NCBI GenBank assembly: GCA_024743355.1
Contig: JANSWS010000011.1
Coordinates: 1 to 46,544 of the forward strand
Length of the DNA stretch: 46,544 nt
Direction: 5' to 3'
DNA from: a bacterium
Lineage (GTDB): Bacteria > Planctomycetota > Planctomycetia > Pirellulales > Pirellulaceae
The notes under the pieces are model-generated. The model made no database searches. It was not told the origin of the DNA and was given only the letters and a program-made list of their open reading frames with translations. The position numbers and the translations under genes were made by a program. This document shows, piece after piece, positions 12,955-42,160 of the stretch (positions are counted from its first letter, which is position 1; each line of letters opens with the position of its first letter).

Positions 12955-13080
12955 CCTCTAGGGGATTGCCGAGAAAGCGTCCCAGAGCACCTGATCTGCC
13001 GGCACCAATATCATGCACAACGATGCTTGAAATTGGCATGGCTATAAGAGGCCGAGCGGCAGTTGAATTCTTAGCCGGAG

Positions 13081-13240
13081 CCACGCTCGCCAGAGCGTGG
13101 TCAACGTAATCCACTGTCTGGCGACGGTAGCTACGGTTGATCGTCCACCGTCTGGCGACGGTAGCTACGGTTGATCGTCCACCGTCTGGCGACGGTAGCT
13201 ACGGTTGATCGTCCACCGTCTGGCGACGGTAGCTACGATT
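13081..13240 (+). repeat. Palindromic repeat array: one CCACGCTC hairpin plus four 34-bp tandem units
   Basis: The array opens with a perfect hairpin (13081-13100: CCACGCTC, loop GCCA, GAGCGTGG). Four copies of GTCTGGCGACGGTAGCTACG follow, starting at 13116, 13150, 13184 and 13218, an exact 34-base period. Each unit is itself a near-perfect hairpin CCACCGTC-TGGC-GACGGTAG. A related array occurs at 42000-42160. It lies between the Nudix gene and the alcohol dehydrogenase operon. It is neither CRISPR (units too short, no unique spacers) nor coding. It resembles a REP/MITE-type dispersed element. Confidence 0.9.
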
Positions 13241-13377
13241 GGTAAATTTTCATCTGCCGCGCCTAAGGGGATGCGTTTTCCGAAGAGCGGCGGCAACCAA
13301 TTAAGGCATCCGCCTGTCTGCCGAGAAACGCTTCGGTGATAAACCCAGCACTATCATCTCAATGATTATCCGCGTCC

Positions 13378-41859: not shown

Positions 41860-41882
41860 GATGGGCCACTGAACAAGCAAAG

Positions 41883-41912
41883 GGGCGAGCATTTGATGCT
41901 CGTCCTTTTTTT
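41883..41912 (+). terminator. Rho-independent terminator
   Basis: GGGCGAGCAT (41883-41892) pairs with ATGCTCGTCC (41896-41905) with one G-T pair and a TTG loop, followed by seven T residues. It ends the Gly/Met-repeat gene transcript and separates it from the pst operon. Confidence 0.93.
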
Positions 41913-41999
41913 GTTTCATGCACCTCTTCTCATCGGGTTGAGAATCACCCTTGGCTGTCGATGCTATTGGGCGAACGGCTGATGAATTCTCACCCGTAG

Positions 42000-42160
42000 C
42001 CATGCTAGCCAGAGTGTGGTTAACGTCGTCCACCGTCTGGCGACGTTGGCAGCGATACGAATCCACCGGCCGTCCACCGTCTGGCGACGTTGGCTACGAT
42101 GCGAAACTACCAGTCGTCCACCGTCCACCGTCTGGCGACGGTGGCTACGGTGCGAAACTA
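42000..42160 (+). repeat. Second palindromic repeat array, related to 13081-13240
   Basis: A degenerate copy of the opening hairpin (42000-42019) is followed by three units with GTCTGGCGACG starting at 42035, 42079 and 42130 (spacings 44 and 51). The last contains the perfect hairpin CCACCGTCTGGCGACGGTGG. Units 2 and 3 carry GCGAAACTA after the hairpin, missing from the first array. Homology to the first array also includes the preceding GAATTCT and AGCCA stretch, so a longer element has been copied. It lies upstream of the pst operon. Confidence 0.85.

Follow-up and report, generated by a model that had tools for sequence, protein, structure and literature searches.

Inverted GTAG-tagged hairpin pairs in a planctomycete genome, their association with a divergent RAYT relative and a possible outer frame

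Two hairpin arrays of a single unit

The window, a stretch of 46,544 nt, is contig 740 of an 8.31-Mb Pirellulaceae assembly in 823 contigs (G000, the own genome in what follows). It contains two copies of a hairpin array, both between co-directional genes: copy 1, at 13.1 kb, is neighbored by a NUDIX gene and a Fe-ADH gene, and copy 2, at 42.0 kb, lies upstream of a PBP-like gene (Table 1). The initial annotation had described a palindromic element with one GCCA-loop hairpin and several TGGC-loop hairpins, in copies with common flanks but different unit number and spacing, and much of this description holds. The GCCA hairpin, CCACGCTC-GCCA-GAGCGTGG, is exact at 13081-13100, well above the chance expectation of 0.03 per window, and recurs with 3 mismatches at 42000-42019. 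Hairpins with the TGGC loop, namely CCGTCTGGCGACGGT and its close variants, are located at 13114-13230 and 42033-42142; there are nine CCGTCTGGCGACGGT-type matches in the window versus 1.57 expected, a number reached in none of 100 shuffles, with two of the nine (566 and 1641) being 3-mismatch matches outside both copies. The perfect 20-mer CCACCGTC-TGGC-GACGGTGG, however, has a single occurrence, at 42125-42144. The right arm is GACGGTAG in the TGGC hairpins at 13.1 kb, which on the GTAG strand gives T.G pairing in the second position of the stem, and GACGTTGG in two of the copies at 42.0 kb. The two arrays have 1 + 4 and 1 + 3 units, respectively.

When read on the minus strand the TGGC hairpin is GTAG-CYACCGTC-GCCA-GACGGTGG, and the plus-strand reading of the GCCA hairpin is GTAG-CYACGCTC-GCCA-GAGCGTGG (with the tag GGAG at 13077). 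The two hairpins are one unit in opposite orientations, comprised of a GTAG tag, an 8-bp stem and a GCCA loop. The complementarity of the GCCA and TGGC loops, from which kissing hairpins had been considered possible, is therefore simply a consequence of the inversion and does not speak for kissing. The gene pair at the site of copy 1 is retained without units in G014, and that of copy 2 in G005, G007 and G010; given that these four genomes hold 0 to 1 units in total, such syntenic unit-free sites do not date the insertion.

Table 1. Coordinates of the features of the two arrays in the window
Feature	Coordinates	Strand	Remarks
Copy 1, TAA, left member of possible 3-bp target duplication	13045..13047	.	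By sequence; partner 13264-13266; as a class significant only in relative G012
Copy 1, left outer inverted repeat	13050..13076	+	Degenerate GGCGAGCGGCAGATGAATTCTTACCC
Copy 1, REP subtype A	13077..13100	+	GGAG-CCACGCTC-GCCA-GAGCGTGG; tag GGAG replaces GTAG
Copy 1, linker	13101..13110	.	10 nt; consensus TCGACGTCGT
Copy 1, REP subtype B, first	13111..13134	-	Tag 13131-13134
Copy 1, REP subtype B, second	13145..13168	-	
Copy 1, REP subtype B, third	13179..13202	-	
Copy 1, REP subtype B, fourth	13213..13236	-	
Copy 1, right outer inverted repeat	13237..13263	-	7 mismatches to overlapping 31-nt consensus, minus strand
Copy 1, TAA, right member of possible target duplication	13264..13266	.	By sequence
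Copy 2, left outer inverted repeat	41970..41995	+	GGCGAACGGCTGATGAATTCTCACCC
Copy 2, REP subtype A	41996..42019	+	GTAG-CCATGCTA-GCCA-GAGTGTGG
Copy 2, REP subtype B	42030..42053	-	Degenerate tag GCTG
Copy 2, REP subtype B	42074..42097	-	
Copy 2, REP subtype B	42125..42148	-	Stem perfect; past this unit, a right outer repeat is not clearly discernible

Subtypes, orientation and placement of the units

In the own genome 488 places match the hairpin unit with no more than 2 mismatches, as against 0 for a backward control, which bears out the dispersed nature of the element and supplies the further copies on which the initial annotation had staked its description. It was recovered in 31 of the 117 genomes searched (own genome included), with a patchy spread extending from 715 units in G041 and 197 in G003 to 0 in G009. 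A sample of 929,568 bases of the own genome, mostly picked for holding units, yielded 275 units when as many as 4 mismatches were allowed, and contigs C1-C20, sampled without regard to units, contributed 16 units in 174,815 bases. These 275 units have an 8-bp stem, with the tag being GTAG in 240 and the loop GCCA in 242. Stem positions 5 and 6 form a Watson-Crick or G.T pair in 262 and 266 of them, respectively, so that the claim of stem changes that preserve pairing is sustained as far as the pairing itself goes. The changes are not a drift with compensation, but two fixed, orientation-tied subtypes: A (GCTC, with GC/GC at positions 5-6; 113 exact) and B (CGTC, with CG/CG; 121 exact). A minor subtype C (CT/AG) accounts for 11 units, and intermediates are few.

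The relationship between subtype and orientation emerges from neighboring units at most 150 nt apart in the own-genome sample, counted with the proviso that units sharing an array are not independent and that those of unassigned subtype are given as untyped. Head-to-head neighbors are A/B in 76 cases, A/C in 10 and untyped in one (86 of 86 typed pairs hetero), and tail-to-tail neighbors are A/B in 19, A/C in 10 and untyped in one (29 of 29 hetero). Neighbors of the same orientation are B/B in 48 cases, A/A in 33, A/B in just one and untyped in three, i.e. alike in 81 of 82 typed pairs. Inverted pairing is widespread in the sample, with 87 head-to-head neighbors in all and two or more units in 70 of its 73 clusters. 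In nine other genomes (loci returned by two subtype searches plus two loci of G008) 49 of 50 head-to-head pairs are hetero and 10 of 11 same-orientation pairs alike, and the partner subtypes are themselves others in some of these genomes, as with CGTC/CGCT in G003 and G004 and GCTC/CTTC in G027. Heterodimers are not universal, though: across 94 loci of the wider RAYT family (see below), 60 of 71 head-to-head pairs consist of unlike hairpins and 11 are homodimers. Same-orientation hairpins at these loci are alike in 46 of 52, with the differing stem positions falling mostly in the loop-proximal half and position 6 being the commonest.

Rough DNA energies, obtained by comparing the joint hairpin in a single fixed register with a fixed pair of hairpins, favor separate folding in 49 of the 72 natural A/B dimers considered (those of the 76 A/B head-to-head neighbors with a gap of at most 60). 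All 144 computed homodimers favor the long joint form, and none of them separate hairpins. On average the long form wins by 12.4 kcal/mol in homodimers and loses by 1.5 in the natural pairs. In other lineages, considering pairs of equal length with a gap up to 60, separate hairpins are favored in 9 of 22 heterodimers and the long hairpin in 44 of 44 homodimers; thus, the direction of the effect is alike everywhere, and the balance is not. As whole elements may nonetheless have a long, imperfect hairpin as their minimum-energy fold, these energies are not to be read too firmly. They bear on the suggestion that kissing loops or a long cruciform are the functional form, an alternative that appears very unlikely indeed. 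The loop is kept in the great majority of units, as noted above, and extrusion of a palindromic dimer is possible in principle; however, recognition by a RAYT would also conserve the loop, its complementarity is accounted for by the inversion, and the inverted partners differ precisely where the long hairpin gets broken. By these rough energies, the CG/GC swap makes a long joint hairpin or cruciform less favorable rather than more so.

As regards position relative to genes, which had been flagged as worth establishing, a purpose-written, crude gene caller placed 44 of 48 clusters in intergenic regions, four at segment edges and none inside a gene, as compared to 81% inside for random positions; the other 25 of the 73 clusters lie on segments shorter than 5 kb and were left unplaced. 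The clusters tend to sit near the 3' rather than the 5' ends of genes, the median distance to a facing end being 51 nt and 187 nt, respectively. Stem position 2 shows a strand asymmetry: read on the GTAG strand, 141 of the 275 units have T.G there, 122 have C-G and just one has the reverse wobble C.A. Both observations would be compatible with transcribed regulatory RNA, i.e. with units acting as RNA hairpins downstream of genes in mRNA 3'-end protection, attenuation or termination. This reading is nevertheless improbable: a T-run is absent at both copies in the window, which also speaks against a role in termination, and copy 2 is preceded by an ordinary intrinsic terminator (41879-41909). 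Moreover, 11 of the 44 intergenic clusters lie between divergent genes and the window has no match to an Rfam family. A T at stem position 2 also turns the tag and the foot of the stem into the palindrome GTAGCTAC, at which tail-to-tail neighbors overlap by 8 nt.

A divergent RAYT gene flanked by the units

The search for a RAYT suggested by the initial annotation proved productive. The partner came to light only when a profile of 36 RAYTs was run against the own genome, which recovered a ninth type of ORF on a contig other than that of the window (G000:C775:3730-4308, 203 aa; E 7.4e-8), with A/B REP dimers directly flanking it on both sides. A search of the 117 genomes with this protein found homologs in 11. 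Those with 61% (G008) and 63% (G004) identity are likewise flanked by the unit type of the window, and those at 50-57% identity mostly have other GTAG hairpins nearby, or none. A PDHxH motif and the tyrosine (Y129) of a Y[IV]xRNPER motif are invariant in all 14 aligned homologs, corresponding to an HUH motif with one tyrosine. Judged by sequence, the protein is a divergent RAYT relative: it matches the NCBIfam REP_Tyr_transpos family with E 6e-11, and scores below curated cut-offs for Pfam Y1_Tnp (15.2 of 23 bits) and NCBIfam NF047646 (42.4 of 80 bits). The top match in a PDB sequence search is the E. coli TnpAREP 4er8, recovered weakly (E 0.07). The predicted model of a 64% identical homolog (L279, also flanked by the unit type of the window; mean pLDDT 94.7) has as its best solved match the same structure, the E. 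coli RAYT with REP (E 5.6e-8, TM 0.70), which points to a RAYT-type fold for the family. With F or L before the Q and a YI[AGV]RNPER motif, the family does not fit, in a by-eye comparison, any of the 11 subclasses tabulated in PMC6006769 (Table 1).

A scan of named genomes, mainly of Planctomycetota and Verrucomicrobiota, supplied 80 further RAYT loci. Hairpins tagged with GTAG are present within 500 nt of the gene at 43 of the 94 RAYT loci, placing this tag at the top of all 256 tetranucleotides; the runner-up TAGC (27 loci) represents the GTAG site with a single-base offset, and the other tetranucleotides have a median of 6. Over the 39 of 94 loci that entered a Mantel test, RAYT identity and REP stem similarity show a weak positive correlation (r 0.24, reached in 0 of 2000 permutations, the best of which gave 0.22). 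Several relatives are rich in units and lack a match to the C775 protein at E of 1e-10 or better, namely G041 and G003 with the numbers given above, G006 (152), G057 (69), G013 and G051 (68 each); therefore, the gene is not needed for the persistence of the units there. The units of G051, where a Y1_Tnp match is also absent at E of 0.001 or better, are possibly orphan REPs.

Other candidate partners were considered and set aside. The own genome has eight Y1_Tnp genes above the Pfam cut-off, none of which has a unit nearby at up to 5 mismatches. The same scan, applied to the 30 top-ranking Y1_Tnp loci from 10 relatives, found only sister REP types nearby (L044, L051), and further Y1_Tnp loci of relatives, examined with the general GTAG-hairpin pattern, displayed no flanking unit of the exact type of the window. 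The RAYT genes of the own genome (L031-L038, L112; the eight at Pfam level and several weaker ones) sit, where inspected, amid repeat types of their own, e.g. ACAAGCACGCAGCGCCAGCAAGTGTGTC in L036 and GTAGCGAAACTC hairpins in L143.

Taken together, the directly observed features of the units (their number, tag, stem and loop, the pairing of A with B in inversion and the siting between genes) and the REP-flanked gene, along with the RAYT-type fold predicted from the homolog model, are best explained if the element consists of GTAG-tagged REP inverted heterodimers (BIME/REPIN), forming a planctomycete REPtron with the divergent RAYT of C775 (TnpAREP, HUH single-tyrosine); we place the probability of this at about 0.83. 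RAYTs act on single-stranded GTAG hairpins, and the first G of the loop is critical in a RAYT group with short perfect REPs (PMC8266576). By analogy with this biochemistry, the RAYT would bind a folded single strand bearing GTAG, cut near the tag and spread the repeats. The A/B difference, confined to the loop-proximal half-stem, would leave each REP hairpin intact and, going by the energies, weaken the partner-partner pairing that would otherwise bury both tags. As separate hairpins are favored energetically in most of the natural A/B dimers of the own genome, we propose that the subtype difference may serve to keep both tags available.

Families of REP heterodimers with a RAYT, here a divergent one, are of an already known kind. 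The likeness extends to the BIMEs of E. coli (REP y, z1 and z2) and their TnpAREP/RAYT (PMC8266576, PMC6006769), which share the GTAG tag, tandem expansion, inverted pairs of unlike subtypes (y-z1 and y-z2) and one RAYT gene flanked by REPs. In contrast to the long bulged stem of the E. coli system, the present units have a short, perfect 8-bp stem with a GCCA loop, and the RAYT here falls below family cut-offs and an outer inverted-repeat frame is present. Di Nocera et al. 2013 (PMC3733652) list 24 GTAG-tagged REP families with Rhodopirellula baltica among the hosts; by description, rather than by consensus sequences, these resemble the present family in their GTAG-tagged stem-loops, head-to-head heterodimers and planctomycete hosts, and in the presence of several tyrosine transposases with their own repeats per genome. 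The frequent occurrence of REP heterodimers had no obvious explanation as of 2013 (PMC3733652). The heterodimer rule seen here is near-absolute and holds for different stem pairs in related genomes, and its physical consequence is a simple one.

The outer inverted-repeat frame

Beyond the tags an outer inverted repeat, GGCGAGCGGCAGATGAA, borders 43 of the 69 testable clusters (on both sides in 18 and on one side in 25, with 26 lacking it), the count being restricted to the 69 of 73 clusters more than 60 nt from a segment end. The end TTAGGCGAGCGGCAGATGAA, derived from the aligned outer flanks, is found at 83 own-genome places at up to 3 mismatches versus 2 in the control. The sampled bases of the own genome hold 78 looser matches, with 5 mismatches allowed, and 62 of these point toward a unit no more than 60 nt away; the remaining 16 are all at 5 mismatches, and a reversed control gives a similar 12. 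Thirty-eight of the 40 TTAGGCGAGCGGCAGATGAA sites in L385-L414 enclose REP units, with the other two being cut off at contig ends. The ends are also abundant in G012 (323 places, with 1 window-type unit) and G028 (132 places). In G012 they frame a different inverted core, of the ACAAGCCCGAAGCGCAAGCGAGTG or TAACCCGA type, and other cores lie inside them at single loci of G011 and G010 and at one locus of a relative, L442 (GTAGCAGGCACACTCCGTGTGCC core). What is new in the system, and also less certain, is this outer frame that in relatives surrounds other cores. At loci L444-L463 and L484-L503 of G012 a 113-156-nt element combines the outer ends of the window element with another core and 3-bp TWA duplications.

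MITEs with 3-bp duplications include those of the IS5/IS1031-like or PIF-like groups. The framed elements resemble MITEs in being short and non-coding and in having terminal inverted repeats and, in G012, 3-bp TWA direct repeats: the flanking 3-mers there are TTA/TTA or TAA/TAA in direct form in 27 of 31 elements and inverted in 3 (p 4e-6 if equally likely). This excess of direct over inverted flanks points to a duplication in G012 rather than to a longer inverted repeat. It is thus conceivable, and we hold it as a tentative alternative, that a MITE frame is the actual mover, with the REP pair as mere cargo or filling between inverted ends of about 20-30 nt, a 3-bp TTA/TAA duplication, a DDE-type transposase acting in trans and a minor role for the RAYT in today's copies, a scenario compatible with the REPtron reading. 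The enrichment of the ends, their enclosure of units and their reuse around other cores would all favor it. Unlike the situation in G012, however, TWA flanks in the own genome are direct in 8 and inverted in 4 of 36 elements (p 0.19), i.e. not significantly biased; identical flanking 3-mers of any kind number 11 of 36 there versus 1 at a control offset. Furthermore, the 26 clusters without an end have to be accommodated, and no outer ends are seen by eye beside the C775 RAYT gene. In a point of difference from MITEs, a non-exhaustive search of the fragmented assembly recovered no autonomous element with GGCGAGCGGCAGATGAA ends, the own-genome list of ends, checked by eye, has no evident pair with an open interior of 0.6-3 kb, and Pfam recognized no transposase in seven inside-facing ORFs at 17 loci of relatives and L204.

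In REPINs, reportedly described by Bertels and Rainey in 2011, the REP doublet is said to be the replicating unit; in contrast, many doublets here are enclosed by a further pair of inverted ends that is independent of their own. Composites of degenerate GTAG units with unrelated stem-loops in Pseudomonas (PMC3733652) are the nearest precedent for the frame. No description of such a frame appears in the literature titles and abstract openings searched, which is not proof of its absence from print. With many copies being packaged between outer repeats, part of the dispersal may have proceeded via a MITE-like frame. A fuller version of this idea, which we regard as speculative and somewhat doubtful, is that the frame GGCGAGCGGCAGATG...ATTTACC with its 3-bp TWA duplication is a re-usable carrier within which cores of different REP types (some GTAG-tagged, with different RAYTs) are swapped; a DDE-type transposase would then spread the REPs, the RAYT would maintain or remodel the core, and inverted partners would be kept unlike such that each folds as a RAYT substrate. 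If this were true, a mobile outer frame would constitute a second route of REP dispersal and would explain the patchy occurrence of REPs where a cognate RAYT is undetectable.

In one relative (L436, 1585-2739) a group II intron maturase domain lies by an end-like sequence with 4 mismatches, probably by chance. A segment of G008 between inverted REP clusters (L098, 845000-848500) was considered as a carrier of a transposase and rejected, as by eye it holds a lipase-like ORF; the placement of this ORF between oppositely oriented REP clusters resembles a composite element.
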